From NCBI GenBank assembly GCA_938743325.2, contig OW568899.1, positions 62,001 to 126,000 on the forward strand: a DNA stretch of 64,000 nt, in the 5' to 3' direction. The notes beneath the pieces are model-generated. The model had not been told where the DNA came from. It saw only the letters and a program-made list of their open reading frames with translations, and did no database searches. Positions 2,494-64,000 of the stretch are shown one piece after another. The first letter of the stretch is position 1. Every line of letters begins with the position of its first letter. Made by a program: the position numbers and the translations under genes. The stretch is from Pycnococcus provasolii. Taxonomy: Eukaryota > Chlorophyta > Pseudoscourfieldiophyceae > Pseudoscourfieldiales > Pycnococcaceae.

Positions 2494-5238
2494 TTAGCTT
2501 GAGTTGGGTGGTGGTGATGGCGGAGGTGCAGCGGGCAGGTTCCAGCATGTCAGCTCCACGGCGCCGTAGTGGGATTCGCCGTCGTGCCACAGTCTCCATC
2601 GCTCGTCGGCAGGAAGCCATGCCGGCGAGTCCACGTGCGTCGTCTCTGAGTAGATATAGCAGCCAGTGCTGTTACTACCAACCTCCATGTCTTTTGAATT
2701 GCTGACAATCCATTCATGGCTTTCGGCATAATAAAGATAGCGCTTATGGCAAGACGTGGAAATGGCTCTTGTTTTGAAGAAGAACCAAAAACTATCCTCA
2801 TCGTCATTAAACGCTTCAAACACAGGCTTGCCATTGATAGTTTTGTTTGGCATTTGGAAGTAAGTACCAATCACATGGTGTCTGTACTCTCGTACATCAC
2901 GCGGTGCGGTGTTCAGAGCAGAAAATGTACACGACGGGATCAACGGGTCACCCGCAAGATGGTGAGCTGCACATTTTTCACCGACATCGGCCAGCACGGT
3001 ATAAATCATAGCAATGGCGAAAAAGAACACTCCAAGGAAATAAAATATAAAAAACAATTTGTGAAATCTAGCCTTGTCGTTCAAATGACGTTTTTCTTTT
3101 TCTGTGCGGAGTAAGGGTAGAATGTAGTACACCTGAATTTGTGTTTGCACACATTTGGCTAAGTAAAATACGACAGCTAAGCAACCAATTGCCAGAGCTA
3201 ATCCGCAGTACCACATTAAAAACCCAAGCTTTGTCTTCGCAACAAAGAAAGGAATGATGACGAAAAGCAATACGCAGTAACCCGAGTTCATATATATAAA
3301 GCCCTCAAATTTGCCTCCGACATACCCGTTCATCATACGGGAGATCAAGTCTAGATACGATGCCTTCAGCTCTTCATTGTGTGCATCAATTGCTGCCTCT
3401 CCTCGTTGTTGTTCGTCAAAACCACCACCATCGCCGTTCTCAACGCCTTGTCCAATCAGCTTGAGGATGCGCTCTTTATCAACAGGGAATCTGGCTTCAG
3501 CCTTGCGTGCATCAATGCTATTTAGAGACTTATCGAGTAGTTCAAATTCGTCACTTGTTTTCGACGATCTCAAAGCATTGCCACAAGAGAATGGATTGAT
3601 CAAGCTCCACCAGAACCACCATTTGCACAACACCGAACGGCAGACTTTGCGCAGCTTTTCGTCCTCCTCATCGCAAGCGATCCCAACAATACCGACTTTT
3701 TTGACTCGTGCTGCTCGAAGTTCAAATTGACACCATGCTCGCCTCAGAGCATGTGGAGTGTGCCAAGAATGAGTCGCCAGCCACAGCATATAGACATTTC
3801 CAACACCATCCAAGAGCTCAGTCTCTGTGTCACCTGAGTTGACGACCCACTGATTTTTGCAGAAAATGTCCACCCATCGGCGTATCCAATCGATATCATC
3901 AAGCCCACGCTGATCCATGTTTGTCACAAAGCCTTTCAGCCAAGTTTCTGGTAAGAAATAGACAAGAAGAGGTATCCCGGAAATATAGTATAACAACAAC
4001 AAGGGCATCGCAGCCACTATGCTCGGAAAGGTGAAGAGAAACCGGATGAAATATGCCAACCATCTTTGCCACCGTGGAGCAGATTCTTCCTTCCAAGTCC
4101 GAAAGAGACGACGATGAATTCTATCCATGAAGGATACCAAAAACACTGTCTCTATGAGATCACGTATCGCACGATTGAATTGACCTGCAAGTTTGCTCTG
4201 GTATTGCTTCGAACCCTTGGATGACCCGCCTGTCATTGCATCGCTGAAATCCTGGTACGAATCCATCCAAGCGTGAGAGACGAAGACGTCCGCCGTGCCA
4301 AAGTAGTTGCGCTCGACCCACTCGCGGCCTTTCGTGTGCACATCAGCGATGTGATCGACGTACGTCTTGCGCTCGCTCTTCATGACCTGATCCTTGCCCT
4401 TTTCATCTTTCTTCGTATCAAGCGCCTCCTCGAGCAGCTTGCCGTTCTTCCACTGCGTGATCGATTTGATGACGAAGTCGACGATATCCGACGTTTGCAC
4501 GAGCGCGACATCGCGAACCTTGAGAGGATTCTCGAGCTTCAGCCAGTCGGTGTTTCCGCCCTTGACACGAACGAGTCCGTCCAACTCAGTTTCAGCGTCG
4601 ATCTCAGCCGGTAACTTGTCAACGTTAATTTCCGCCTCGACAAGTTCCCACTTTTCGTTCCGGCAGCGAGGCAGGCACACGAGCTTACGCACGTGCTCGA
4701 CATAGCTCTTGCGCGCCTGCAAGCCGTCGCCTAGGTCAACGAGCTGAACCTCCTTGCCGTCCGCGTCGTAGCCAATGGTCACAGGCATCTTCTTGTCGTT
4801 CTGCGTTGTCACATCGACAGCGTGTTTGCCGTCATGCGGCTTTAAGCGCGCCAGCCACTCCTCGCGTGTCTTCGGCGTACTTAAGGCTTCCCGGGTCAGT
4901 CCAAATTGCGGCAGCACACGAGTCAAGAAGTCCTCGAGAAACGCCTCAGACACACCGACAAGCGCGTTCGCCTTCTGCTGCTCATCACCTTCCGGCGCAA
5001 CTTTCCGGCTGGCTCTCGTCACGAAAGCGACTGCGTGTCCGATTCCACGCACCATGCGTTTGAGCGCCATGCTTCGCGCGTGGTACGCTGGGTTGCTACC
5101 AACAGGCACAGCGAGCGCGGGCGTACCACCACCATTATCGTCATCGTTTGGCACCACACCCAACCTGACAACCCCAGAAATCGGCACACCCACGACACGC
5201 GCAGACGTCGCGCCGGCACCAGCACCGGGTGACGCCAT
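2494..5238 (-). CDS. Multi-pass membrane protein with a TIR-like SHAW-motif domain
   Basis: A 914-residue protein; the ATG at 5238 is preferred over an in-frame GTG two codons upstream. FVSHAW lies at about 319-324, then WVDIFCKNQ at about 455 and RAWCQFEL at about 501-507. This F(V/I)SHAW ... W(V/I)DIF..NQ ... WC..E(L/I) pattern occurs in TIR-like proteins of protists and algae. The WC..EL glutamate (about 506) sits where plant TIR domains carry their NAD-cleaving glutamate (WCLNEL), so NADase activity is possible but inferred. The stretch between the first and second motifs is unusually long (about 130 residues) and holds hydrophobic helices at about 393-434. Further membrane segments lie at about 653-697 and 727-750. 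The C-terminal tail ends in a short Pro-Ser run. I do not know its biological role. Confidence 0.85.
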   Translation of the reverse strand: MASPGAGAGATSARVVGVPISGVVRLGVVPNDDDNGGGTPALAVPVGSNPAYHARSMALKRMVRGIGHAVAFVTRASRKVAPEGDEQQKANALVGVSEAFLEDFLTRVLPQFGLTREALSTPKTREEWLARLKPHDGKHAVDVTTQNDKKMPVTIGYDADGKEVQLVDLGDGLQARKSYVEHVRKLVCLPRCRNEKWELVEAEINVDKLPAEIDAETELDGLVRVKGGNTDWLKLENPLKVRDVALVQTSDIVDFVIKSITQWKNGKLLEEALDTKKDEKGKDQVMKSERKTYVDHIADVHTKGREWVERNYFGTADVFVSHAWMDSYQDFSDAMTGGSSKGSKQYQSKLAGQFNRAIRDLIETVFLVSFMDRIHRRLFRTWKEESAPRWQRWLAYFIRFLFTFPSIVAAMPLLLLYYISGIPLLVYFLPETWLKGFVTNMDQRGLDDIDWIRRWVDIFCKNQWVVNSGDTETELLDGVGNVYMLWLATHSWHTPHALRRAWCQFELRAARVKKVGIVGIACDEEDEKLRKVCRSVLCKWWFWWSLINPFSCGNALRSSKTSDEFELLDKSLNSIDARKAEARFPVDKERILKLIGQGVENGDGGGFDEQQRGEAAIDAHNEELKASYLDLISRMMNGYVGGKFEGFIYMNSGYCVLLFVIIPFFVAKTKLGFLMWYCGLALAIGCLAVVFYLAKCVQTQIQVYYILPLLRTEKEKRHLNDKARFHKLFFIFYFLGVFFFAIAMIYTVLADVGEKCAAHHLAGDPLIPSCTFSALNTAPRDVREYRHHVIGTYFQMPNKTINGKPVFEAFNDDEDSFWFFFKTRAISTSCHKRYLYYAESHEWIVSNSKDMEVGSNSTGCYIYSETTHVDSPAWLPADERWRLWHDGESHYGAVELTCWNLPAAPPPSPPPNSS

Positions 5239-5813
5239 ACTCACTGTGATGTGATGGTGGTGATGGCCGGCCGCGAGGAAGTAAGAAAAACCCTGGGGGC
5301 AAGGAGGGGCAACACGCAGAGCCCCCTAAGGTTAGAGAGCTCATCAATCACGAAGTCCACGGGACGAGCTCACGGCAGACCGAACCCACCCCCCTCCCCC
5401 TCCTGCAGTGCATTATTGCTGAGGTTCTCTGATCATTTGATGGATGATGGATGGCGTCCGGGAGAGGCGCATCACATCACATCACATCACATCCCATCGG
5501 CATTACAGTAACTTCATCTCTCTCCTTCTCTTATTCTCTCATTCTCCCCACTTATTCTCCCCTCCCTCCCTTTCTCACCACCGACCTGTCACCTGCATCA
5601 TCCCCGACCTTTTTCACCGACCTTTCTCATCCCGACCAGGTTCATCCCCGACCTTTCTCACCGACCATTCTCATCCCCGACCAGGTTCACCGTGAACTAT
5701 GATATCGTAGGGTCGGAATATCTGGTTGGAATTTCTCTGAGATTTTTTCTTTTTCTTTTCTTTTCCCCCTCCCGTTCCGTTCCAATCCGTTTTGGTTTGT
5801 TTGCCATCATATC
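5239..5813. promoter_or_regulatory. Shared upstream region of two divergent genes
   Basis: This 575-bp gap lies between the start of the SHAW-motif protein (minus) and an SDR (plus), so it must hold both promoters. CTAAGGTTAG is at 5326-5335, 88 bp upstream of the minus-strand start. The plus strand near 5510-5690 is very pyrimidine-rich, with reiterated CATCCCCGACC / TTTCTCACCGACC units. No gene is seen. Confidence 0.5.
5469..5494. repeat. Short (CATCA)n tandem repeat
   Basis: About five direct copies of a CATCA-type pentamer in the divergent intergenic region. Confidence 0.7.
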
Positions 5814-14211: not shown

Positions 14212-17200
14212 TTATATGGCGAGCGCCAGCAGGAGCGCCGTGCCGCGCAAGATCCAGTGCTCCGGGTCGACGTTTCCGCTGCGTAGCTCCACCATCACCA
14301 TGAATGAAGGACGCTCGCGCGATCCCGTGCGAAGCGGGTACAGGTACATCGGGCACTGGTAGATGCCACGTCCCACCTTCTTCTTGTTCTCGATAGGCTT
14401 GAAGTGGATGATCGGCATCGTGACGATGAGCTCCATGGGATCAGGCTCGCACAGGCAGCCGTTCTCGAAGTCCCAGCCGGCACCCTCGAGGAATGTGCCA
14501 CGCACGTAAACGCCGTCGCGCGGCGGCTGCGTGATCTCCTTCTCGTCCAAATTGATGATCGAGAAGTCCCACGACAGCGTATCGATCGGGATTGCCGACT
14601 TACGCGCCGTCGTCTGTAGGACGGCGGTCAGGAAACCTGTGGGGTACGTGAAACCGCTCAGCCAGTACACGCGCGGGTACGTCTGCTCGATCCACGTGTT
14701 CAGCTCCGTCCAGCGCAGCAGCAGATCGCGGCTCCACGAGCCGAGCGGCTTGAGCGTTGGGTACGTTTTCAGCCACTTCCCGGGGACGCGAGCCTTGTCA
14801 AAGGCGTTGAAGATGGCATCGAGCTCGGCACTCATCACGACGAGACCCTTGATACCGCGCTGCACAGCCTTGCAGTCCGCGTGAATGCGATCAAGGAGAA
14901 CGTTGTACCTCTCCACCTCCTGGAATAGCACAACGTGCAGTGCTGAAGGGTCGTCCGCCTTGGCTTTCATGACGTTCTCGAGGTTCCACGCCTTCGGGAT
15001 TGTGTTGAGCAGATCCTCACACAGGTCATACACCATCTGCTCGGCACCACCCTCGCCATCGCCTCCCGAGGCATCCTGCGGCTGCAGCGAAACGAGCGAT
15101 TCGAGCACAATTTTACTGTCTTCGATCTGGAATGCAATTTCGGCATTTCCGTGCTGCCCGAAGGCTTCGGGCGAATCGTTCGTGGGGAGCGTCATGATGT
15201 AGTCCTTGTACGTCTGCAGTGGACCGGGCTCGGGGATGTAGTAGATCGACAGCGACGACAGCGGGTAGTTGGGAATACTCAGAGCGTCCTCGCAGTAGAA
15301 CTGGTCGAGGTACGAGCGAAGCACGCGTCGATCAATCTCGTCCGTCACGCGGCCGCCGTAGTTCGCCTCCGAGATGAGGTACTTGAGTGCGTCCCACGGC
15401 GTCTCCTCGTACTCGTCGAGGTAAACCTTCAGCAGGTCGTCGGACACCACGTAGTCCGTGTCGGAAAAGTCGTACGGGATGTTCAGGCCAAGGTTGCGGA
15501 ACTTGCGTCGCTCGAGGATGGTCGAGTGGAAGTACGTGAGCGAGAACAGCAGCTTGTTGTATTTAGCCTGCGTGCGGCACTCGGCGTAGCTTTCCTCCGT
15601 GACGGTGTTGTACAGGCGAAGCAGGTTGGCGCGAAGGCCCTTCGGCGGCTCCGTGGTCATCTTGATTCCACGCTGAAGGATAGCGATGGGAAAGTCCGGA
15701 CTCGGATTCGACGAAAGCCATAACCTGAAGTTCGGGTTAGGATCCGCCTTCTCGAAAGCCTCGATAATCTTGTCAAGCGCAGGCAGCCAGCTCGTCATGA
15801 GGTGGCAATTCGCAAGGAACACCCACGTTCCCTCCTTCAGGCCTTCCTCGATGAGCTTCGTGGCGACCGGCGCCTGCCCCTGCCCAAGCGCGATGGTGTG
15901 GAACTTGTCGCCAAGACCCTTCGTCTCCGCGAGGCGCCTCAGCTCCGTGGTGGGGTCAACGCCAGGACTCAGCACGAAGATGAGCGGGCTCGTGGGAACG
16001 CTGTCGGCGTGCGTCTCGCCAAGGTCCAGTCCCGGCGGCTCAACGTACTTGCGCCCGAGCGCGTTGGCGACGTAGCTCGTGGCGGCGAACATGACGCGGT
16101 CCACGCGCAGGCAACGCACGATGATCATGCGCTGCAGCTCGTTGCACTTCGACTCCCACTCGCCGGGAAGCTCGGCGCTCTCGGGCTCTCCTTGGCGATA
16201 CCAGTCCTTCTCCCACTGCGCGACGTTTCCCTCGAACGACGCGACGATACCTGAACATTTTTATTTAGTGTGTTTAGGTTGTTAGTGATTGTTGTTTTTT
16301 ATTTGTGTGTTTTGGTGGTTAGTGGTAGACTTACCCTTGAAGTGCGGGATGTTCTCCAGCTCGGTGATGTTGTCCCACGCCTCTTCCGAGATCCACGAAG
16401 GATCAGGATTCTTTTGCTGCGTGCTCCTGTCGAGCACCGAGCCGCCGCGCAGGAAGAATTGCCACTCGTCTTGATTCACCTGATTCGCCTTCTGCAGGAT
16501 GCGCACGCAAATCTGCAGCGAGAGCAGCAGCTTGTGCCTCCCGAAGAGGCCGCGCGCGGTGTACTTGTAAACCGCGTACGTGTGGTAGTCATTTAAGAAG
16601 CGGATGCGCTCCTGCAGGTTTTCGCTCTTCTGCGCCTTGGAGATGGACAGAAGCATGAGCTCGTTGTACGCGTCCAAGCTGAACTGGTACATCGGGTCAA
16701 TCGACGCCAGGTCGTTGAGAACGAAGTACAGCACCGCGGCACGAATGCTGACTGGTCGGTATCCATTACTCGCCTCTTCGATCATGATTGACGTCTCCTC
16801 AGCCACCTTCAGCGACTCGTTCACCTCCTCGAACGTGATCTTCGACTGGTCGAGCGCGTTGAGAAGCTCGACATTGTCAAGCAGCGATCCCGTCGCCGTG
16901 CTGAGCATGTACAGGATCTGGTCCTCGAGCTCAACCTGCGTGCGCTTTCCAGCCGCCACCTTCACCACCAGCTCGTTCTTCTGCTTGTCAAGGTCCGGTC
17001 GCTCCTTGCGAACGACGGTGTTGAGCAGCTGAGCCTCGAGGCCATCCTCCTTGACGGCGAAGTTGGTAATCGTCACCTTCGTGCTGATGGTTGGCTCGTA
17101 CGTTGGATTCTGCATCTTCGTGGTGATGTACAGCTTGAATGCGGGATCGTAGTCCACCTCCTTGTCACCAAGCTTGATGATGTACGCGTTACCCTTCTTC

Positions 17201-20200
17201 ACGAGCTGCTTGCTAAGCACAGGCTCCAGAGACGGGTCGAGCGTCTCGAGCACGTCCTGCAGCAGCACGGGCGTGCCAAATTGGATAGCGTTCTCCATGC
17301 GTCGCATCATGTCACCCGTGCCGTGCGACACGACGTCCACCTGCTTGGAAGCTTCCATGTTGCGAATCCACTTGTTCGCCTGCCCCTGAGGATCGATCAT
17401 GAGAGGCCAGCGCGTGCATCGCGCAACGATCACGCCATTTTCCGTCGAGAACGCGTCGGCGGGCAGGCCCTGAATGTTCCAGTCTCTCACGTCGCTCGGG
17501 TTGGCGAGGAAGTTGCTAAACGAGAACTCCGCAGAGCTGGGAATCGCGAGCTTCTTCACCTGCGGCAGCCACGTCTGCCCGACGAGCTCATTGCGGTACT
17601 CGGAGGGGAATGGGCCGGCGTAGCTCAGGAACGCGGCAGCAACCACAACGTCTCCCGGCAAGTAGCCGAGCTCCTCCTCGAACAAGACGATGCTCTGCTC
17701 CCATCGCGTTCGCTCGCCGGCGAGACCGTTGACGAGCTTTTCGGCTCGAATGAGCTTCGCCTCGAGCTCGTCCGACTCGGTTTGCAATTTCTCCTTCTGG
17801 CTCGTGGACTCGTCGTACGTGTCCTTGAGCGCCTGCACCTTCGCTAGCACCTCGGCGAGCTGCGCCTGCGCCTGCTTCAGCTGCTTCTGCTTTTTCTCCA
17901 CAGCCTGCGTAGCCTGCTTGAGCTTCTCGCGCTTGGGCGCCACCTCCTTGGCGACGTGCCCGTACGTCTCCATGGCACGCACCCACAGGCACATGCCCTT
18001 CGCCGCACCGGACACCTTGCCGACAGCATCTGGCATAAAATCGGGATTATCCGTGAATTTCTTGATTTTCTTCAGAAGTGCGTCTTGCAGCGTGTCTTTG
18101 TCGAACTCAATCAATTTCATCAGGAAGTTGGCATCTCCCATCTGCTTCTTCGCTTCGTCCCAACCGGGAGGGCGCTTGAGCGTCGTGAGAACGGCGGATA
18201 ACGTGAGCTCGACCGCCGGCGGCGGCTTCGAGTACGCCTTAAGCTCGCTGACGTCTTTCTTGGTGAGCACATTCAGAGCCTCGGTGGCGGCATTCAGTGC
18301 GGGCATCGCCTTGTCCAAACCTTCCTGGCACTCCTTCGCAATGAGCTCCGCCTCTCCCGCCTCCTTGGCAATTTTAGCAGCCTCGGCGTTGACTTGCTTT
18401 TCCTGCTCGTCAGCCACACGCTTGTCCTGAACAATCTCAACAAGCAGCGCTTCACAGTCCACCTTCGCCTGCGCGACAATCACCTTCTTCTCCTCGCACA
18501 CCACCTGCATTTCCTGCACCTGCACACCCGTTTCATCGAGCTTCTCGAGGCCACCACTCAGCTTGAACTTCTTGTCCACCAATTCCTGTTTTATTTAGTG
18601 TGTTAGGGTGTTAGTAAATTGTTTGTTTATCCGCTATGGATGGTTAGTGGTAGACTTACCTTTCTCTTCTCTTCGAGCAATCCGCGGTACCCACGAACGA
18701 ATGCCAGATAGTTGGTCGGCGTGACGAACGTTTTGCGTTTGAGCTTCTCCTCCATGTCCGCCGCCGCCTCGCTCACGGAGCTGTGCGCCGTGACCATCAC
18801 CTTGGCGATGTTCTCCTTCACGTCGGCGTCGATCTTCTCCTCTTCCAGCTGCTTCTGCGCCACCTCGAACAGAGCGTCGTTCGGCCACTCTGTAAACCAG
18901 TCGATGGTCATGCAGTTCACCAATCCTGGGAACATACGTGTTCGCTCGCGGAACGCTTCACCCACGGGGGAGAGACACAGCACGACGTGCAGGTTGGCAG
19001 CCACGCGCTTGAGGAAGAAGGAGAAGAGTTGATCCTGCGTTTCTCCCGCATTCGCAGCCTTCGCCGCCGCGCGTACATCCTCGCAGACGCCGCCAACCTC
19101 GTCCTTCGTGAACAGATTAGGCACCTCGCCACTCGTGAGGATGTTGTTGATGTCCTCCAAGAACACCTCGGTAACGACCTGGCTGTCGTCGAACAGAAAT
19201 ACGCTTGGCTTGTTCTCGACACCAGCCTGCCTGAACAGCGTCTTGAGATCCTCGTGAAATTCGTTCAGGCGGTACGTCTTCGTGATCTCAACCATGAAGC
19301 ACTTCAAATCCGCGACGTACGCGGTGAGCTTTGCCAAACTCTTTCGACCAGAGCCACCAACACCGACGAGGAGCGAGTTGCCCTTCGGCTGCTGGAGCAC
19401 GCGATGCAGTCGGCAGCAGTGCAGCAGCGCGTCTTTGAAAAGCACGAGGTCCATCGCCGTCTTGCCAGGCTCGAGCGCGTAGTCCTCGAGCTTCTCCATG
19501 AGAAACGCCTTGAGAGCTGGCATGTCCGTCACTGCCTCGTACGGCGGGTGGTCGACTTGCCGCATGAAGCTCACAAACGGAGGGCACTCGTTGTTGTTGT
19601 TCTCAAACAGATTCTCATACCGAAGCGTGAACACGGAGTCGAGCTTGGAGTCGAGCTGATTCTGCACCCAGCCCTTGTCCTTGAAGTCCCACATGCGGTC
19701 GGCGTAGATGCGAAAGCTCTCGTGGCACCACAGCTGCAGCATGGACTCCTTCGAGTCGTAGTACTGCTTCGTCGCCTGCATGACGCCTTGAATGACCTTC
19801 GACAGGTCACGCGTATTGAAGAGATAAATCTCCTTGCCAGGCACGGGGAGCATCTCACTCACGATCGTTTTGTACACCATCACGGAGGCGGCGGTGATCG
19901 GCTCCGCCAGCGGCTTGATTTCCTCGTCAAAGTCCGACAGCTTGGCAGCCAGCAGCGTGCCGAAGATACGCTTCAGCTGGTTGTCATTCGGCGTGGTGAC
20001 GTTGATGAGCGAGAATGCAGCCTGCACTCGCATCGAGAAGGGATTACGACCTCCGCCGGGCGGGGCCATCGAGCCCAAAATTTGCAGCTCCTTCACCTGC
20101 TTCACCTCGCACTTCATGCGATCGTACCAGAAGCCGTTGTCAATCCAAAGCTTCAGCAGCTCGAGCGGCGGCAGGAAGCCGAAGGCTGAGAGCTGTGGCA

Positions 20201-23200
20201 TGTTGAAGTCGTCCACGTGCACGACAAGCTTCTTGCCTCCCGTGGGCGCGAACACGCCTTTCGTGCGCTTCTCCAGTCGTCCTTCGATGGCATCCTGCAG
20301 ACTATTCGACGAGCTCTGCGCGCTGAAGTTCACGACGAACGATCCCTTGCCCTCAGGCAGGCTGGCGAGCGTGTCCTGAATGATGAGCGTTTTGCCCACA
20401 CCAACTTCGCCAGTCACGAGGCAGTGAGTTTTCAGCGTGGGGTCCGAAAGCAGCTTGAGCAGGACAAACTTCGTTCTCACGCTGTCCACCGTGGGCACCA
20501 TGAGCTGGAAGAATGGCGTGTTGTTGATGTCCGGCCTGTAATTTGCGCTCAGCTTCTCGTCCCACGGCGCCCACGTCTTCTTCGTGGGGTGCACGAAGAC
20601 GTCGTACACGGTGTCCTGCGCTGGATACCGAGAATCCATTTCGCGCATCCACAGGTCGAACTTCTTGCGGCTGTCGTTGTCCAGCGACGCGCCGATCGAC
20701 CAGATGACCGAAAAGAGGAACGTCAGTTCGATCATCGGAACGTACGTGTCGGTGCCCTCCTCCACGCCGTTCGCTTTTTTGCACAGCGAGTCGAACAGGC
20801 GCACGCACGTTCGCACGCCATTGAGCGGATCGATCGGAACCGTCTCCGCGCAGTTGAGGCGCTTGTACTCCGTCACGGGCTCGATGTACTTCTCGACCAT
20901 GCGCGCGAGCGTCTCCTTGAGCACGGCATCGGACGCCTTCGTGGCAAGCCACGACGTGAGGAACGGCTGCAGCCCGAGGTCCTCGGTGTTCGTGTACACC
21001 ATTCCCGCGCGCGACACCGTGGCAGGTGATGCCTGCGACAGATCCTCCACCTCGAACAACAGCGAAACCTGCGGGGGCATGGCAATGCGCTCTCCGGACA
21101 GAAGCGTGAGAAGCTTGTTATCGTCGAGGGTGGTGTTCATCGACTCGATCCAGAGCGTGTCGACCGGCCCATCGAACAGAATCCACTTCTGGTCGGGCGT
21201 CTCCTCGCGGCAGATGGTACGGAACACCCGAGCGAGGATGCCATCCTGCCACTCGTTGTTGGAGTTGAAGCAGCCGTACATCTCGTCGTTGCTAAGGGCG
21301 AGCGGGTTGATGGGGTACACGTGAACCCGTTGGTAATTTTCGTCCTCCGGCATCATATCCTTGAGGCGTGCCATGGCACGAGTCAGGCACTTCCAAGCCT
21401 CGCTCTTTCCCGCGCCCGTTCGCCCGACAATCATGTTTCCGTGACGTGCAACCTTGCAGTCGAATATCTGGATCATCTTGATGACAAACTCGTGCACCAC
21501 CTGAAGATTGTTGTTGACAAGTTCCTCCTCCAAAATCTTGCGCAGAATGCCTCCGTCGTTGGGCGGGAGTTCCACGCCGGGGAACAGGTCGCCCAGAAGC
21601 GCCATGAAGAGAGGAAGATCGGCGTACACCAACTTCGGTTTGATGAGATCAATCATCGTCCTGAACATAATCACCTCCTCTGAAGCGTCAACTTCAACGC
21701 GCTTCAGGTTGCCAGCGGCACGCGCAATCGGAATGACAAACGATCGCAAACCGTAGTCGTAGTGATCCTGCTTCGAGAGCTGCTGCTGAGACAGCTCCAT
21801 AATACTAATCATCTTCTTGCTGAGAATTTTCGCTGTCGAAAACCCCTCGGCGAAAAGCATGATCTCAGAAATGAGCGTGAAGTCAGGAACCATCATCGAG
21901 ACGGGTCGCACGATTGCTTTTAGGTTGTCAGGCAACTCCGAGCGACCAGCGTATCCTGGGTTCATTGTCACGAAGATACCACAGCTGGGAATCAGCCTGA
22001 TTGTCTGCCCATAGAAATCGAAGTGAGACCTATTCTCCTTGATCGCAAGCATGACGACGCTGATCTGCGACGCGACGACGGACAGCACCTCCACCTCAAT
22101 TCGGTTGAACTCGTCGAGACAGGCCCAAGCTCCAGTCTGTGCCAATCCCGAAAACATCTTCGCTGTCATCATGAAGTCGACACCATCCGAGCAGTTGAAG
22201 ACGATGACGTAGCGCGCCAGCGCCTTGCCGAAATCCTTCACAGTCTCAGTCTTGCCAGTTCCGGCGGGCCCGAGAGGGTTGCCTCCACGCCGCGTGAAGA
22301 GCGCGGCTCCCAGCGTCATGTAGCATCGATCGGTCAGCGGCGTCATAACAAGACGGCCATTGTTGCCCTGATATTCGTAGCCGTACGTAAAAATAGACAA
22401 CACCTGTCGAACGATGCAGTCGTTGTTCTCCCAGTAGAATCGCAGCTGCGACAACCACTCAAAGTCCGCGGTGGACGAGCATCCCGACTTGCCCAGCTTC
22501 TCGATGACGTCGCGCGCGTGCACCTCGATGGTGATGAGAGCCACCACCTTCTTGCGCATGATCTTGGACACCTTCCCGCGCGTGATGCCAACAAGGCGAT
22601 TCAGGTAGGACACCCACTTCTTCTTCAGCTGGCGCAGCGCACTCTTCGCCAAGTCAGGATCGCTGAGGGACTTCTCGCACTCGGTCGTCCAGATCACCTG
22701 ACCGGCGGAGATGACCGTCTGACCCAGGAAGTCGCCAACCCAGCGCTCCACCTTCATGCTCTTGCGCTCCTCGAGCGTGCGGTGAAGGTACTTCTTCGTT
22801 GCCGCGTACATCGCAGCCTCGACGCGATTCAGCCACTCCTCGGGGCGTCCCTCGGTCTGCGCGGGGGTGTTGAACGGCACGTACTCGCCGTCGGGAGACG
22901 TCATGCCAATGCTCTCGCAGTGGCGCCTACCGTCCTGTCCCGGCATCTGCATGTCAAGCTTTGACACACCCTCGAAGCACTTTTTAAGGTGCTGCTGCAC
23001 CATCTGCGGGTCCTTCGCTTGGCCGAGAATTTCCAGCAGGTCGTCGCTCGAAAGGAAGTAGAAGCGCGGGAATGCCATACGCTTCGACTCGAGGTAGGCA
23101 TCGAGACTCTTCTGAATCTTCTCGAGTTTCATCTCCATGTCCTGGAACGCCTCCAGCAGTCCAGGAGCCGTGCAGGCTGGAAGTGCCTTGGAAACGTTCG

Positions 23201-26200
23201 CCATGAACGCCATCTTCTTGATGTACGACATGTGCACTCCGTCGAACATGCGCGACTCGCCGGGCAGCTGCCTTCGGATGTCCTCGCTGCCGATGAAGAT
23301 GTTCTCCAAATAAGACCAAGCCTTCTGCACGTTGAGCGTGATCTCCACCACCTCGCCGACGAGCGAGAGCTGCTGCTCTCGCTTCAGGATGATTTCCTCG
23401 AATACCATGAAGTACTTCGAAGCCTTCATCGTGCTGAGCGTTACGACGTTGTCCTCGAGCGCGGCGTTGACATCCTCCGTGCTGCGCAGACGATAAATCA
23501 TGTGCTTCGTGGAACCCTCCTTAAACTCCTTGAATGGCTGCATGTCAAGGCGCAGCGGATCCTGCTCCGGGGTGCCCTCCCACAGCTCGCCAATCGCCTT
23601 CAGGCTGAGCTCGATCGCGAGCTCCTTGGTCGCGTTCGTCGCGAGGTCCATGATGAGCTCCGCGTGGTCGGCGAGACGAAGCTCGACGACGCGATTGAGC
23701 GTGAAGTCGTCTCCTGCCGGGTCGAAGCGCTCGCCCACGGCATCCATGAGCTGCTCCCAGTGGCGTTCGCGCAGAGCCTCGTTTCTGTTTTATTTAGGGT
23801 GTTAGGGTGTTAGTGAATTGTTTGTTTATCCGCTATGGATGGTTAGAGGTAGACTTACCTCAAGTCCACGATCAGAGGCATCGTTTTCTTGAAAGAGTCG
23901 ACGACGTCCTTGATCCAAGCCCACGCAGGCCACGCGCGGATGTCGCGTCCAATCTTGACAATCTTCTTCGAGATCGTCACCGCGGTGGTCTCCATGCCCT
24001 CCACCAGAATCTCGCGGAACAGGCCGCCTTTCCAGCTGTTGTAGTTTCCCTCCCACTCGGCCACAATGCCCCACAGATTTTCCATGAGATCGAGCTCCTT
24101 CTCCGTGTCGCTCATCTCCTTGTACGGCGGCTGTGCCATGGCGAAGATGTCCATGCCCTTCTTGATGTCCGCGCCGCTCTTTCGTCGCGCCGCCAACGCT
24201 TCCTTCTCCTTGGCGATAAACGCCTTGGCAGACTCGACGTCGAATCCCTCGTTCGTGAATGGGGCCACGGTCTGAAACGTCTCGCGCGTCTCCGCAACCT
24301 CGCGCGTGAAGGCATCCGACATCTTCGCCACGCGCTCGCGGAATCCCTCCTTGGCCGTCGCGAGGGTCTCCTCCGCAGCCAGAAGCATGCTCTTGTAGTC
24401 TTCCCACTTCGACTCGAGAGACTCGAGCAGCGCATTTTCCTCGTCCGTCACCCCAGCCTCGAAACGCTCGAGCGTCTTGTACTTGTCGTGCAGAGGCTGG
24501 AATCGAGCTTCGACGCTGTCCAGCTCGTGCGTCAGCTTCACCTGCAGGTTCACCTGGTCCGCGAGCATGTCGAGGCTCGAAACAGGTACCGCAAGCGTGC
24601 GCGTCGAACTCGAAAATTGGTCGTGCAGCTCCATAAGCTCCGTCTTTGCCATCGAGTTGAGCAGCCCCGTGAAGCGCGTGACCCACCCCTCGCAGTGCGC
24701 GACGAGGCTCTGCTTCAGCGGGCTGACGTCGATTCGCAGGAAGCGCATGTTCGTCGACGAGTCCTCGGCCACCACGTCCTCGGCAATGTCCTTGTACTTG
24801 GAAATGTCCGAGGAAAACGCGGAGAGCGGCTTGCGCGCCTTCTCGTAGCGGCGAATGTACGCCTCCTTGTCAGCCTCCCAGACGTGCTTGAACTTCTTCT
24901 CGTAGTAGCCTAGGAACTGCTGCACCTTATCCACGATGCCCGAAACGCCTGCGGTGATGGCGACGATCGTCTTGAGCGTCGTGTCCTCGTCGCTCGACAC
25001 TGTCTGGTAAAAGCTGGGAAGCTCCTCCGACTCCTTTGCCGCCGCCGCCGCCGCGGCGCTGCCCTCCTGCGCGCGCGTTCCGCGGCTCTCCGCAAGGCGA
25101 GGTACCACCTGTATGCACGTGATGAGGTCGCGCGACGTGCTGTGCACCATGTCAAACAGCTCCTTCACGGACGGGCGAAGCTCCACGCGGTTGCTGGCAT
25201 TGTCCAGAATCACAGTGACGTTGAACACCGGCACCACCTCCGTCTTCGCGTCGCCGTTCAGAGCCCTGCTAAGCTCCTGCAGGCTCTTCTTGACAGTCTG
25301 ACGCAGCGCATCCTCCATCTTCTTGTCCACGGCGCGCGTGTACTTGATCCACTCCTGCTGCACGTCCTCGCTGTCGCCACGGAACGTCTCGTAAGTGCGA
25401 TCCATCTGCTGTCGTACATCCTGGTGAAGTCGCTCGAACTTCGCGCGCGCAGCCTCGCGAATCTCCGACTGCCGCTTCTCGAACTCACCCTCGCCGTAGA
25501 CGCGCTTGCGCTCGATCGACACGAGCAGCGTCTCAGAGATCTCCTTGCACGCTTTCGCAATCTTATCGTTCGCAGCCTTGTACTCGAGCACGGTTGTCTC
25601 CACCTCGCGGCAATACTTCTTCGCCTCGCGGAGGAAGAAGTCAAGGTGGTGCTTCTGGCTCGTCCAGTTGAGGCGGTGAATTCCCGGCGCGATTCGGCGG
25701 TCAAGGTAGTTGATACGGTCCGCAAATAGCTGGCGCTCGCTTTCGTTCAGGTAAGACAGGATGCGGTTGTAGTCGCGAACGACGAGCATCACGTTCTCGC
25801 GAAGGACGCGGAAGCGCTCGCGCGAAGCGGCAATCTCCATGGCCACGAGGGGGATCTCCATGTGCAGGCGCTCCCAGTAAAGAGTCTCCTGAAACAGGCT
25901 GAGAAGCGATTTATCGAAATTCATAAGCAGACTTCCGCGTTCCGATTCCGTCTGCGTCATCAGCGAATTCTCGAGCTTTTTGGGATAGTTCGGATCAATG
26001 GTTGCCACCCATTCCGCGTGCTGCGACTGGATGTACGCGTTGATGGATTCAACTGCCAGCGCGTGAGCGTGCGCCAGGTCAGCCGACTCCGGAGTGTCGG
26101 GAAGCAGCTTGCTCGCACGCTCGAGAACCTCGTACGGGCCAACAAGGCGGCGCTTTAGGCCATCCGCCCACACCGCTGCGCCGGAGTAGCGCGGGAGCAT

Positions 26201-28144: not shown

Positions 28145-29729
28145 AGATACACGCGGCTGGGCACGAACGTGTGAGCTCCGCCGAGGCGAAGGGAGGGGAG
28201 GGGGGGGGCAACAAACAGGGGTTTGGTTTGGCGACGATTGGACTCGCGAGGATCAGCTCCAACGCTCAGCTCGACACTGCACTCCCTTACACACGAGCGA
28301 GCTCGAGCTCTTGCTCTTCGGACGGTCTTTGTCTTTGTCTTGACGAACACAGTCTCGCGGTGGGCCCCAGTGCAGCTCGTCCTGTCTGTCGTACGAGGTA
28401 CTGCACTGTGGAGCGTGGAGTGTGGAGCGTGGACTTTGGGCTTTGGCAAAGCTTTGGACTGCACTGCCAGACCAGACCCTGTTGCCTGTGTCGTAACCTT
28501 ATACTGGCGTGCCGGTCAGACCTCAGACCTCAGACATAAGACCAGAGACAACCTCCTACGGTAGAGTAGGTCCGAGGCTCTCTCTCGTGGATCCGCGCGA
28601 GACGCGAGACCAGGACTGCCGCGAGTGACTGCAGTTGACGAGGATGGGCCCAAACAGCACGCTGGCCTCTTGTACGTATGTAAGGTATGTTTACCACGCA
28701 GCAAGCAGTCTACGATGTACGATGTACGATGTACCGTGCACTGTACGTCAACGAGAACGTTTGTGTTTGTGCGTCAGGTCTCACTTCGGCAGCTCTCCCT
28801 TGTTCAGGACTCCTTCTTGACACCCTTTGCCACTGTTTTCGCTCATGTTTTTGCGTTGGTTCGTTGGTTGAGTTGGTTGCCAAGGACCTTGGTCACAACT
28901 CACAACGGTCCGCTGCATGCATTCCGCAGGGCTCGGCGCAGGAGTTCACGTCACCGTTAACGATATGTACCGGTAAGAATACCCGTATTATTGTCTGTTT
29001 TATGGACTTGTTTCCCTGTACTGTAGCCTATGTACCAGGCCGTCTACCGAGCGAGTATGTGCATAGGTCCCACACCAACTTGTAAGTTGTACTGTAGCAC
29101 AAGTCTTCCCAGTCTCGCTCCTTGACGCTATCGTAGCTTCAAGCTTGGTCTTGACGCTCCGTAAATCACCTGGTAAAATGGCTAAATGCCCATGCTGAAT
29201 GCTGAATCGTCTCGATTCCAGCCAGGATCGTCGAGCGTCGCGATGCGCGATGCGCGTCGCGATGAGGGCTAACCTTAACTGCTTTCCTCGGCGCTTTCAC
29301 TGGCACCGGCACTGCGACTCCAAGCAGCGCCTCCGTCACTCCGTCAGGTCAGGCTCAGCTCTCTGCGGCGACACAACAAGGCTACCGGAGTACCGGGTAG
29401 CCTCAACGCCCGCCTCGCCTCAGCAGCGTGTGCGCGTGTGCGTCTGTGTTGGGGGTAAGCCCTTCACCGGAGGGGGACAGGTCTGTCGCTCGCCCTGTAG
29501 CTGCACGCACGCGCGCTGCCGTGTTGTGCCTGTTGTGGCGTCCGTCCGTCCGTCGTTGTGCCTTGTGTGCACGCACACAGGTCTAGCGCTTGGGACCTCG
29601 ACTGCCACTGGAGTGCGAGTGCTGCGAGCTTGCAGCGCCCCAGCGGACGGGGGCGGCACTTCACGGGTTGGGCGCCGGGCACACTGCGCACCGCACGTGG
29701 AAGCGTAAGTAACGAACGATTGGGGAACG
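28145..29729. promoter_or_regulatory. 1.6-kb shared upstream region of dynein and Kelch-FN3 genes
   Basis: This is the longest gap in the window. It separates two head-to-head genes, so it must hold both promoters and any 5' UTRs. I find no convincing coding sequence. Features seen are a G-run near 28200, low-complexity dyads such as GGAGTGTGGAGCGTGGA near 28420, a heptameric repeat at 28710 and CTAACCTTAA at 29269-29278. Several short frames are open but have no recognisable domain. Confidence 0.5.
28710..28732. repeat. Tandem (TACGATG)n repeat
   Basis: Three direct copies of a TACGATG heptamer in the dynein/Kelch upstream region. Confidence 0.8.
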
Positions 29730-31613
29730 ATGCCGCCCAAGAAAGATGACAAGAAGGGTGCGGCCGCGCTCACGCCCGAGGAGAAACTTGTGCTCGCCGA
29801 GCAGACGATGGAGGCGGAGAAGCAGAACATGCAGGTGGACATGGCGTTCCACAAGGATAAGCTCACGCAGAGCAAGATCGAGGCGGCCAACTATCACCAC
29901 GAGCTCGAGGATACCAAAAGCAAACTCGCCAAGGCGCTGCAGGACTCGGAGGATATTCTCACGCACAAGCAGCGCGAAATTCAACAGAAGGTGGAGCGCG
30001 TCAACACCCTCGAGGGGAAGGTGAAGGAGCTCGACGCCGTTGTCATCGAGCGTGACGAGGCTATCGCACGCATGACGCAGGAGCGCAAGGAGGTGCAGAA
30101 GCGCCTCGACGAGGCGAGCGAGACTCTCAAGGAGAAGATGGCACTCGAGAAGACAGTGCAGAACCAGGATGCGCTTATTGCGGAGCAGGATGAGGAGCTC
30201 AAAAAACTGCGCGATGCGCTTGAGGAGAGGGAGCACGAGCTGTACCTGCGCACCGAGGAGTGCGAGGACCTCACGCTCAAGGCGAACGGGTCGACGCGCC
30301 TTGCAATCTTCTTCGGCGAGCCTTGGCTGGTGACGCTGTCGCGTTTCCGCCTGCACAACCACGATAACGCCACCGACCGCGAGGATAACACGCTCACCAT
30401 CATGTCGCCGAAGCAGATTGTGCTGTGCGGCGGCCAGAGCCGCGTCGAGGGTTCGAGCTCCCTGCTGGCGGCGAACATCGACCCGTCGAAGATGGAGTGG
30501 GACGCGCCGCCGGGCGCCATGGCGAACCACCAGGCAGAACGGCACGGGCACACCTCGACGGCTGTGGCAAAGAACAAGCTGGTCGTCATCGGAGGGCGGC
30601 GCATGCACACGGTGCTGGATGAGGTTCACGTGCTGAACACGGACGGCATGAAGTGGACGACGATGAACCTTCGCGGCGTTGTTCCGCAGCGCGAGGGACA
30701 CGCCGCGACGCTGTGCGGCGAGCGCATCTACATATTCGGCGGCTCGAACGGCACGATTCTTTCGTCGGACATCTACTCGCTGGACGTCGAGCAGAGCTCC
30801 ATCGCGCAGATGTCCGTGTACGGCCCGAGTCCCACCCCTCGGCGCGACCACACGATCGTCGCGAGCGAGGATGGGCGTCGGCTCTGGATGTTCGGCGGGA
30901 ACGACGGCGGGAAGGTGCTCGGCGACCTGCAGATTTTCGAGGTGGAGAGGCAGATGTGGATTTCGAATCCGAGCACGTCGGGAACGCCGCCATGCGCTCG
31001 CGAGTGCCATGCCAGCGGATGCATTGGCAAGTACCTGATGATCGTCGGAGGTTTCGACGGAACGCGCAAGCTGTCGGACATATGGGCGCTCGACACGGAG
31101 ACGCTTTCTTGGGAGTGCATCGACGAGGGCCAGAAGCCGAACGCGAAGATGACAAACCCCGTGGACCAGGTTGTGAATCTGCAGAAGCGTGCGCGCTACA
31201 CGACGTTCTACGGCAAGGCGATCATCAGCGTGATGCCTTACAAGGCTGATCGCCTCGACGAGCTTCAGATGCTCGAGTTCCAGCTTCCTGAGGACCTGGA
31301 GGCGTTGAAGCGCAAGGGTGGCGACGACGACGCGGCGGACCGTCTTGAGCTTCTGTCTGGCATTCCGAGTGGCCCGAATGCGCTGGAGGTGAGCTGGCGC
31401 CCGCCGACGAAGAATCAAGACCGCGTCGACCGCTACAAGCTGATGGTTGCGACGAACACGGGTGTTGTGAAGGAGGTTTGCCAGGGGAAGCACGTTCGGT
31501 ACCGCGTGAGTGGTCTTCGTTCCAACACGTCTTACGTGTTCTGCGTCAAGGCGATCTACGACGACGGCTCGTTCCTGTGGTCGGAGAGCAAGGAGTACCA
31601 GACGAAATCCTAA
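29730..31613 (+). CDS. Coiled-coil, Kelch-repeat and fibronectin-III protein
   Basis: 627 residues. Residues about 15-190 are a heptad-rich, Glu/Lys-rich coiled coil (LTPEEKLVLAEQTMEAEKQN onward). A Kelch propeller follows at about 225-480, with blades marked by GG doublets (VVIGGRRMH, IYIFGGSNG, LWMFGGNDGG, LMIVGGFDG), each followed by an aromatic position. The C-terminus, about 530-625, is a fibronectin type III domain ending VSGLRSNTSYVFCVKAIYDD. It reads as a cytoplasmic scaffold. Its head-to-head position with an axonemal dynein heavy chain suggests a ciliary role, but no domain proves that. The start is the first ATG of the frame, in a Lys-rich MPPKKDDKK context. Confidence 0.88.
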   Translation: MPPKKDDKKGAAALTPEEKLVLAEQTMEAEKQNMQVDMAFHKDKLTQSKIEAANYHHELEDTKSKLAKALQDSEDILTHKQREIQQKVERVNTLEGKVKELDAVVIERDEAIARMTQERKEVQKRLDEASETLKEKMALEKTVQNQDALIAEQDEELKKLRDALEEREHELYLRTEECEDLTLKANGSTRLAIFFGEPWLVTLSRFRLHNHDNATDREDNTLTIMSPKQIVLCGGQSRVEGSSSLLAANIDPSKMEWDAPPGAMANHQAERHGHTSTAVAKNKLVVIGGRRMHTVLDEVHVLNTDGMKWTTMNLRGVVPQREGHAATLCGERIYIFGGSNGTILSSDIYSLDVEQSSIAQMSVYGPSPTPRRDHTIVASEDGRRLWMFGGNDGGKVLGDLQIFEVERQMWISNPSTSGTPPCARECHASGCIGKYLMIVGGFDGTRKLSDIWALDTETLSWECIDEGQKPNAKMTNPVDQVVNLQKRARYTTFYGKAIISVMPYKADRLDELQMLEFQLPEDLEALKRKGGDDDAADRLELLSGIPSGPNALEVSWRPPTKNQDRVDRYKLMVATNTGVVKEVCQGKHVRYRVSGLRSNTSYVFCVKAIYDDGSFLWSESKEYQTKS

Positions 31614-35454: not shown

Positions 35455-35669
35455 GTTGCGCGCTTTTTCTCACGTCGGAAACGCGCTTGTTGTTTTTCTT
35501 TTTTGGGTTGGTGATTGGCGGTGGTGAGCCGCCGACAACACACTTGGCGTGGAAGGAACCGAGAGGTGAAAAAGAAGAAGAAAAAAAACGATATTTAGGA
35601 ACGAATCGGTTTCCAAAACAAACACTCACACACTCACACACACGCGCTCTCTGCAACAAAGTGCCTCAT

Positions 35670-40206: not shown

Positions 40207-40296
40207 AACCCTAATCCTATCTAACCCTAATCCTATCTAACCCTAACCCTAACCCTAACCGGCGAACCCTAACCCTAACCGGCTAACCCTAACCCG
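40207..40296. repeat. Interstitial telomere-like CCCTAA tract, divergent promoter
   Basis: Perfect and degenerate CCCTAA units (CCCTAATCCTATCTAA, CCCTAACC, CCGGCGAACCCTAACC), between the SET gene start at 40075 and the RabGGTB start at 40354. Confidence 0.95.
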
Positions 40297-41439: not shown

Positions 41440-41574
41440 AAGCAGCCTGAAAAACCTGAGAAAAACAAACAGCGTGAATTGTGAAGTAACATACCTTTAA
41501 GGCTTTAAGAGCACCACCGGTCATCGTCATCGATCGAGACACACACACACCGGTCATCGAGACTACATCACCCG

Positions 41575-41658
41575 AAACCCGTAACCCTAACCCTAAACGT
41601 AACCCGTAACCGTAACCGTAACCGTAACCCGTAACCCGTAACCCTAACCCTAACCCGT
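41575..41658. repeat. Interstitial telomere-like tract upstream of the amine oxidase
   Basis: CCCTAA units interspersed with ACCCGTA and AACCGT variants, ending 62 bp before the ATG at 41721. Confidence 0.95.
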
Positions 41659-43337: not shown

Positions 43338-44728
43338 AACAAGGGTATGATAGATGATAATTGTAGTACTAGTGAGTAGAAACGGAGTCACGGATTCTTT
43401 TTACTATCTGTCTTTTTAACGTTTGTGGAAAGAAAGCAACTTGCAAGGTCATGGTGGTCATGGGGCCCGGTGGCCCGGTGGCCCCACTGGCCCGCGCCCG
43501 CCGTTGTCCTCTCCCGATCTGAGAGGTGGTCAAGAATACAGTAGTACAAAACTAAGTCACAAACCAGGCTCCCCCCAACGCCTCAAAAGCCTCAAATAAA
43601 GACCAATAAAGATCTTGCAAATCTTCGGTGAATCCTCGGTGGTTGTTTTTGCTTGGCTGATTAACCGGGCCTAACCGCTGATTTGCCATGTCATCTTTCA
43701 TCGGTCTTTTCGCGTGTTGAAACGTCACATTCCGACAGACGCGCATTGGCAACGAAGCCTTGCAAGTCGAGTATAACTTTTCCTGGCGAAATGATCGTAC
43801 ATGTCTCCCAGCAGCGCATGGGAGAGTACACGGTTTTCCATTCGTATTTTCCGGTCGCACGCCTTGCATTTCTCGACCTGTCCCATCGTTCCTGGAGTCC
43901 CCGACCTGCAAGTCCGGTATGGGCGCCCATGTGTTTTCGTCGTATTTGGTCGAGCAGGTCGGGGAAAACGCGCACAGAAAACCACCGGATGTTCCTCGAT
44001 GCGAAAAAGTGAAGCGCGAACTTCGTCAAGCCTCCCAACTGCTGCGTTACGTTGAGCAAGCGCGTTTTTGCTCTTATCAAGCGCGTTACCCTTGAGTCTT
44101 GACTGTACAGTCAAGGGTTACCCTCCGTGATATCGCGATACTGTATCACGGACAACGGAGGCGAATGAACTGCGATGCAGTACTGCAGTGCCAATAGCTT
44201 CAGCGCTGAAATGAAGGAAATTAGCCAATTAGGGAGGAGGACTGCTGAACTAATTTTAATGAGGGGAAAATCATTCTTCTTGCAATTAATCTTGCATTCC
44301 CACCCGACAGGACTTGCCCAGGTGACTTGCCCAGGTGACTTGCCCGACCAAACGGTGCATTGCACTGCATTGCAAAGAAACACACTTGCACGGGGTTGCA
44401 TTTGCAAGCACGGTTGGGCACCTCGGTTGGGCTTGCAAATGCATCCCCGGTTGAGCCCGGTTGAATTGAGTCGACCTAGGTGGCAAGAACCACCGTGTTG
44501 CCGTGTTGGTGGATGCAATACAAGCACGTCGTTCGTCCTCGAAGTTCGTCGTTCGTCCTCCGTTAACCGTGCTCGTGCTCGTGTTGGTGTTGGTGCTCGG
44601 GAACCTGGCCAACTTTGCAAGCCAATTTGTCCAAATAATTGTTCCAATTTTGTCATTTTCCTTGTTGGTTGCTCTCTCTCATTGTCTCTCTCACTGTCTT
44701 CCTACTTAAGTAATAAGTAGACTACAGT
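43338..44728. other. 1.4-kb intergenic region with palindromes and unassigned open frames
   Basis: No gene is confidently supported between the amine oxidase and the permease. TACAGTAGTA is at 43537-43546. From about 43690 to 44110, frames on both strands stay open for about 110-130 codons but match nothing I recognise. Two dyads lie at 44098-44152. Short direct repeats (GACTTGCCCAGGT, GTCGTTCGTCCTC) fill 44300-44600. The last 300 bp probably hold the permease promoter. Confidence 0.5.
44098..44152. repeat. 18-bp perfect palindrome and adjacent 9-bp-stem hairpin
   Basis: CTTGACTGTACAGTCAAG (44098-44115) is a perfect palindrome. TCCGTGATA (44124-44132) pairs with TATCACGGA (44144-44152) across an 11-base loop. 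They lie in the gap upstream of the nucleobase permease. Confidence 0.9.
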
Positions 44729-51376: not shown

Positions 51377-51471
51377 GCAAACCTTCTTCAGGAGAACGAG
51401 AACGAGAACAGGGCGGCGACGATGCCCAAGGGCCCACCTTGGGGAGTTATTTCTTGAGAAAGAAAATAACC

Positions 51472-51503
<32 letters not shown>

Positions 51504-52059
51504 GACTCCCTGACCCGTCCTCCCTAACCCGTACTCCCTGTCCCGACCTCCCTGACCCGACCTCCCTAACCCGAACTCCCCAACTCCCTATAAAACAGCC
51601 TGTATAGTCTATAGGTAGGTACGGGTAAGCTTAAGGTACGTCGCTCTCTTGTATGTACAGTACCGCATCACAGATGACAGAAGTTGAGGAAGAAACTTTA
51701 AGGAGGTGACCTATGTATGTAGTTGGTATTTTAAAAGGAACGGGAGACCTGTAGGAACGGGTAATTTTAAAGGGAGAGAGCAGAGCGGCTTAACGCTGAT
51801 TGGTCTGACAAACAAAAGGGTCAAAAACTACTACTAACCTTACTACTGTATGGTAAGCTTTTAGTGGTTGGCCACTTAAGGCCTGTGCGATCGTTCCTTT
51901 TTTCCCCTTAGTTTGGATGTTCAGGGGAAAGTCTATGTCGTGTATATAATTGTTGAAAAATATTTTCTCCTCTTGTCAAAGTAACACTTATGTTTTCATC
52001 CATCTCTCTCTTTTCTCTGCACACTCACCAAATTATGTTCTCTCCTCTACATCATCCAT
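51377..52059. promoter_or_regulatory. Upstream region of the STE20 kinase gene
   Basis: A 683-bp gap with the kinase promoter on the left and the 3' flank of the giant gene on the right. It contains a telomere-like tract and CTAACCTTACTACTGTA at 51834-51850. No gene is recognised. Confidence 0.5.
51466..51595. repeat. Interstitial telomere-like tract grading into degenerate repeats
   Basis: Four perfect CCCTAA units (51466-51495) decay into a longer array of (CCCTGACCCG/CCTCCCTAACCCG) variants. It lies 90-220 bp upstream of the kinase start codon. Confidence 0.93.
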
Positions 52060-58000: not shown

Positions 58001-58886
58001 ACGAACGGTGCCACGGCAAGATTGCTGTACCCCTTGACGTACACGGACTTCTGTGACTCGCCGTCAATGCTGACATCGAAGTACTTGCTCCAGGCGAAGT
58101 TCACACCCAGAATCTCCACGAACGTTTCCGACGTGCCAGCGCGAGGCGCCTTGCTCGGCGTGCTGTCTACAATTTTCGCGGGCATCCACGGCGCGGTGGA
58201 AAGAATCCAGTACGCTCCCTGCACCTCGCCGATTGCTCCGACAGCAGTGCCAGCCGCCACACGCGTCTGCGTTCCCGGAAGTCCGGTGAAGCCAGTCTCG
58301 CTGAAGGGGAAGTACGCGTGCAGCGTAACGCTCTCCGTCACACGTCCCTGGCTTGGCTTTGCCTCGTCAGGTGTGGTGTATGTGCTGTGGATCGCGATCT
58401 CGTCCATGACGCCGCTGAAGAATTGGGACGTTTTCGCACCAGCGACCGTCGCACACATGCTGAGACCTCCGCCGATAGCCGGGCGCGACGTAGTTGTGAA
58501 CCGTGAAATCACCTTGTCGTTCTTCTTCAGATATCCCTGGCCCTGCGCATTCACGGACAGCGTGATGTAGTGCCAGATACCAGTGGTTGGGTCGTCGTCA
58601 GTCGACACGGCGTCTTCGATGCCCGAGTCGTAGTAGAAGAAGCGCTTCGAGGCCGTGTCGAACATGATCGCAGCCTTAACGTCGGATCCCGACGTAAAGG
58701 AGAGGACCGTCGTCGCCGTCGAAGTTGCGCCGGAGTCGTAGGTACCCTGGCTCGGCTGTGGGACTTCAGGCCTCAGGACTTCATGGCCGTGCAGGCGGCG
58801 GCGAACGCGGCCGACATCTAGCGGCAGAGGCGGCGCGGGAGATGGCGGCGGCGGACTCGGCGGCGGCGGGCTTGGCGGCGGCGGGC

Positions 58887-58917
<31 letters not shown>

Positions 58918-63893: not shown

Positions 63894-64000
63894 CTGTTGT
63901 TGTTGTTGTTGTTGTTGTTGTGTTTTGGTTGTTGTGTGTGTTTGTTGTGTGCTATGTGAGATTTCTGATGACTCGAGCTTGCGGTATGTTGTTGAGTGGT
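63894..64000 (-). other. 3' part of an intron in the giant gene
   Basis: The sequence upstream of the acceptor is A/C-rich, with a nine-unit (CAA)n tract and a (CA)n-like stretch. The minus frame has a stop here, so it cannot be coding. The donor site is probably beyond the right edge. Its A/C-rich composition resembles dynein intron 3, but I see no extended alignment. Confidence 0.6.

Follow-up and report, generated by a model that had tools for sequence, protein, structure and literature searches.

The origin of new spliceosomal introns is a long-standing question. In a survey of 3,325 genomes, introners were defined as sets of four or more introns, located in dissimilar proteins, whose similarity extends to both splice boundaries, and target-site duplications (TSDs), terminal inverted repeats (TIRs) or both were reported for 59.2% of 130 judged families, or 78.5% without ascomycetes (PMC9860276). 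Fungal introner-like elements are interpreted there as spreading by reverse splicing; they are elsewhere described as present in many copies in unrelated genes (PMC4457414) and as having a conserved secondary structure (PMC3879977). For one fungus, less than 1% of the gains of single introns are credited to tandem duplication within the same gene (PMC4457414). For Micromonas RCC299 one account gives introners (IE-C) with a mean of 67 nt, 221 copies and a GACTGACG branch motif, next to canonical Micromonas introns in which AG|GTGCGT and an NCTGAC branch motif are favoured (PMC3879977); another gives 64 +/- 7 nt and 164 copies (ABC-IE, PMC4815162). PMC3879977 relates that near-identical introns within the same gene of Oikopleura dioica have been put down to reverse splicing. 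Candidate introners are listed for mirusviruses (PMC12768974). The chromosomes of Pycnococcus provasolii have 55.5-58.0% GC and one 5-kb gene of this alga was reported intronless, while Chloropicon primus has 57.4-57.5% GC and introns in 36-37% of its genes. Among the matches listed in the literature search, no title reported introners in Pycnococcus, though this does not prove that there are none.

The DNA analysed here, called the window, is a whole stretch of 64 kb with a GC content of 58.3%. Nineteen long ORFs, hand-picked out of 86 listed, were taken as genes; the ORF at 29661-31493 was left out as antisense to a kelch gene. One of the nineteen carries three short introns, and once these are removed its frame contains a single stop, the terminal one. 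A 1,695-aa stretch of its second exon had as top PDB match the Dynein-1-beta heavy chain (8glv, 2606 bits), followed by two DNAH2 chains (1775 and 1758 bits). We take the former to be from Chlamydomonas and the DNAH2 chains to be mammalian. The Dynein-1-beta heavy chain belongs to the flagellar inner-arm I1 complex. The difference between these scores, taken among PDB relatives, points to a green-algal host. The host protein is accordingly predicted from its sequence to be an axonemal dynein heavy chain of algal type, close to DNAH2 and I1 1-beta. Peptides spanning the three junctions aligned to the 1-beta chain and to both DNAH2 chains with no gap at the junction; gaps elsewhere were one of two residues against DNAH2, about 25 residues upstream of junction 1, and a single-residue one some 15 residues past junction 3 on the downstream side. 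The features are collected in Table 1, and the intron positions proposed by an earlier sequence-only reading of this DNA were borne out, all on one strand.

Table 1. Positions in the window of the predicted dynein gene, its exons and its introns
Feature	Positions	Strand	Details
Host gene, predicted axonemal dynein heavy chain, DNAH2 / I1 1-beta type	28144-14212	minus	spliced ORF 4,566 aa
Host gene exons (n=4)	28144-23859, 23784-18660, 18585-16335, 16250-14212	minus	
Intron 1	23785-23858	minus	74 nt, phase 2, GTAAGT...CAG; ungapped protein alignment over junction
Intron 2	18586-18659	minus	74 nt, phase 0, GTAAGT...CAG; ungapped protein alignment over junction
Intron 3	16251-16334	minus	84 nt, phase 1, GTAAGT...CAG, diverged centre; ungapped at junction

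All three introns are of the GT-AG type and each holds stops in all three frames. Their donor end is GTAAGTCTACC, the stretch after the donor is TCTACCACTAACC, and an CTAAATAAAA end precedes the acceptor in each copy, with five additional bases before the CAG in intron 3. The sequence-only reading had let the element begin at CTAACCA, but the conserved start is the donor itself, which lies before that motif. The 19-base start and ACACTAAATAAAA tail that it had described as common to all three were found as such in introns 2 and 3, while intron 1 is one base off in each. The sense strand of the introns is rich in A and C and poor in G (A 43-54%, C 26-30%, G 5-8%), and in the flanking exons G is the most frequent base (32-35%). 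The exons end in GAG, AAG and AGG upstream of the introns. CTAAC occurs near the 5' end of every intron. Counted from the 3' end, it recurs at 25 nt in introns 1 and 2, which have a third occurrence at 17 nt, and at 31 nt in intron 3. The motifs at 25-31 nt are the likeliest, putative, branch points. With GT-AG ends, CTAAC motifs and an intact protein, all three are predicted to be spliced out in vivo. No stable fold was found, the values of -3.4, -3.8 and 0.0 kcal/mol standing against mononucleotide-shuffle means of -2.3, -2.0 and -0.6 and lying within about 1.1 SD. Rfam searches for encoded RNA were negative, both for the window at gathering scores and for 16100-24100 with E values up to 1.

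Introns 1 and 2 are identical at 71 of 74 positions from end to end (blastn 95.9%, E 2e-30), which agrees with the lengths and the three differences noted before. Within the window, blastn aligned intron 3 with intron 2 at 77.9% identity (77 columns, E 8e-11) and with intron 1 at 76.6% (77 columns, E 1e-9); the alignment of introns 2 and 3 starts at base 1 and stops no more than 3 bases short of the acceptor end in the former and 8 in the latter. The exon flanks, as had been claimed, are unrelated: between the sites of the introns only 10-14 of 60 positions match upstream and 15-18 of 60 downstream, so that the intron itself was the unit of copying and duplication of a gene segment is rejected. 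Similarity thus reaches both splice boundaries and ends there, as in the survey's introners, and both splice sites of each intron are contained in the copied unit. With intron 3 as outgroup in the blastn alignment, two changed sites fall in intron 1 and one in intron 2, so neither simply gave rise to the other. A recent gain, as the sequence-only reading had it, has its sole basis in the three differences between these two, and intron 3 is much more diverged.

It could be argued that an intron-poor genome keeps stereotyped introns, alike without any copying. Long conserved splice signals are known from intron-poor genomes, and intron 3 resembles the other two mainly at both ends. Introns 1 and 2, however, are also identical through the centre. 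When donor and acceptor were removed, none of 2,000 dinucleotide shuffles reached the interior score in any of the three pairs, so the similarity is not limited to splice signals; with the branch motif removed too, introns 2 and 3 still scored above all 2,000 shuffles. We consider stereotyped signals a very improbable explanation. The 18-base start, with up to three mismatches, occurs three times in the window against 0.02 expected. The 12-base tail, with up to two mismatches, has five matches, three of them the introns, against 1.02 expected, and is by itself weaker evidence of more than chance. That the three introns are homologous copies of one sequence, beyond shared splice signals, is well supported by these comparisons of sequence. 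Whole-intron homology, splice-site-exact ends, unrelated flanks, three phases and a seamless protein argue for copies placed at separate sites, and the copying asserted in the sequence-only reading is upheld on these grounds together with the shuffles.

Abutting matches between exon end and intron end amount to 2, 2 and 1 nt in introns 1, 2 and 3, and those between exon start and intron start to 0, 1 and 3 nt; in agreement with the sequence-only reading, a target-site duplication of constant length is absent beyond these 0-3 nt in the three copies, which were compared with no empty site. Set against the reverse complement of the 3' end, the 5' end agrees at just 2, 3 and 3 of 12 positions in introns 1, 2 and 3, so no terminal inverted repeats were recognised. 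These figures weigh against a short, non-autonomous, transposase-driven DNA element whose target-site duplication supplies one splice site, even though TSDs or TIRs mark the larger part of the introner families judged in the survey (PMC9860276). Intron 3 alone would suit such an element, having GGTA over each of its two boundaries and TTCA on either side; because introns 1 and 2 lack this repeat, it is not read as a target-site duplication. An origin of this kind appears improbable.

The distribution of the element is the point on which the remaining explanations divide. It is carried by one of the nineteen ORFs, the dynein, and by none of the other 18, 15 of which have Pfam domains. The statement that other genes are intronless is consistent with these hand-picked ORFs, among which small genes or terminal introns may be missed. 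They amount to about 41 kb of coding sequence, in which about nine copies would be expected at the density of the dynein gene. With insertion proportional to coding length, a post hoc calculation gives a chance of 0.027 that all three copies fall in any single gene and of 0.016 that they fall in the dynein. A fourth copy was not found within the 64-kb window by pattern searches, blastn with 7-base words or an nhmmer model of the three introns, the next nhmmer match having an E of 20. The next-best blastn matches, all to intron 3, lie at 63903-63933 (E 0.013) and at 35487-35522 and 63919-63948 (E 0.045), and were taken as composition matches because they fall in A/C-rich or repetitive stretches. 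This distribution argues against dense invasion of the whole genome and is compatible with a sparse family or with same-gene copying.

In copying of the latter kind an excised intron would re-enter its own transcript at a new site, and recombination would then carry the product into the same gene; in a variant, conversion at the DNA level would copy the intron. No dispersed family would exist. The concentration of three copies in one gene accords with it; a scheme in PMC3879977 has the cDNA of a re-inserted intron recombine back to the parent gene, and the Oikopleura introns related there provide a precedent. On the other side, at least two independent events of different ages in one gene are required. 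We regard such copying as possible but doubtful, and at that level as a serious rival to an introner family.

Viral, prokaryote, phage and plasmid collections yielded no true copies, as expected for a eukaryote. Six stretches in viral contigs match the 18-base start, five of them mutually identical over the bases compared, and the sequence after the start is unrelated. The single tail match in the collections (L007) is unrelated upstream. Gapped and centre patterns of the intron gave nothing in the viral contigs, nor did the gapped pattern in the genome contigs. Intron 2 as query found no match in plasmids and one 21-nt match in phages (E 0.2, two records of one phage). No dynein relatives were confirmed in the viral or genome contigs. 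Such misses say little, since the contents of the collections are mainly viruses, prokaryotes and plasmids.

Several other features of the window may be recorded. A loose intron scan returned, besides the three introns, 44206-44303 (minus strand), an AT-rich stretch of the form GTGGG...TTTCAG with a CTAAT motif, unlike the element; a looser one returned 3111-3208 (plus strand), equally unlike it. At 40207-40295, 41570-41658 and 51467-51584 (plus strand) there are telomere-like CCCTAA arrays and degenerate versions of them, none within the ORFs counted as genes, and a similar CACCCTAA tandem occupies 23794-23813 in the 3' half of intron 1. A giant intronless gene at 52060-63846 (minus strand) is one uninterrupted ORF of 3,928 aa, in which matches to Laminin_G_3, Kelch, DUF2341 and TIG occur alongside G/C-rich repeats. 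The 916-aa ORF at 2494-5244 (minus strand) has no Pfam match, and its 3' half (2761-4000) includes several AT-rich stretches, unlike most ORFs in the window.

Taken together, the anatomy of the dynein introns looks like that of a mobile intron, either an introner-like element or a product of reverse splicing. We lean modestly towards their descent from one self-copying short spliceosomal intron, that is an introner-like element without target-site duplication. One such intron would copy itself into new exonic positions, each copy a complete intron with the donor GTAAGTCTACC, a CTAAC branch region and the CTAAATAAAA end, placed in sense orientation behind GAG, AAG or AGG; splicing would remove each copy and leave the protein unchanged. 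The copying may proceed through RNA, by reverse splicing, reverse transcription and recombination, and not by a transposase leaving a target-site duplication, and further copies would be expected in other genes. This account is favoured by the 71 of 74 identities of introns 1 and 2, by the E values of intron 3 (8e-11 and 1e-9), the shuffles and the unrelated flanks, by the three phases and ungapped junctions, by two ages of divergence as in mobile-intron families, and by a size near that of the short introners of Micromonas RCC299. It is disfavoured by the lack of a fourth copy where about nine were expected in 18 ORFs, by the confinement to one gene (chance 0.027), by the failure to find a copy in any collection scanned, by a membership of three introns in one gene, short of the survey's four or more in dissimilar proteins, and by the lack of the TSDs or TIRs that most non-ascomycete families have. 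As the best single explanation, with copying inside the gene as its main rival, the introner-like element stands just on the probable side. It is rather unlikely that a spliceosomal intron copied itself repeatedly within this single transcript, leaving three descendants of two ages in a nearly intronless stretch.

If the introner-like reading is true, a short mobile intron that lacks a target-site duplication and has copies of two ages in a single gene of an intron-poor, probably green-algal genome would give a new lineage for intron gain and help to tell the reverse-splicing route from the transposon route. Self-copying within the transcript, if true, would document in nature the gain of introns through reverse splicing with no transposon involved. 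The dynein introns lend themselves well to a test, since a single genome search together with one RNA read set would decide between the readings.

In comparison with the described systems, DNA-transposon introners likewise make introns by insertion into exons and are precisely removed, but they bear TSDs and TIRs, whereas the dynein introns have no common TSD beyond 0-3 nt and no TIR and contain both splice sites within the copied unit. The Oikopleura introns also lie as copies within the same gene, to which the present ones are confined within 64 kb; there they occur pairwise among the roughly 75,000 introns of the genome, whereas here three copies of two ages occur with no other intron recognised in the window. 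Fungal introner-like elements share the absence of TSDs and TIRs but have a conserved structure, while the fold of the dynein introns lies at most about 1 SD below shuffles. Going by published descriptions, the canonical introns of Micromonas, with AG|GTGCGT and NCTGAC, are unlike the dynein introns, and its introners (IE-C and ABC-IE) differ in their GACTGACG branch motif, in place of which CTAAC and no CTGAC is found here, and in copies that are dispersed, against three in one gene within 64 kb. These Micromonas introners nevertheless resemble the dynein introns in being short, in their conserved sequence and GT donors and in belonging to a small-genome green alga. The dynein introns are likely a further case of a kind already known.
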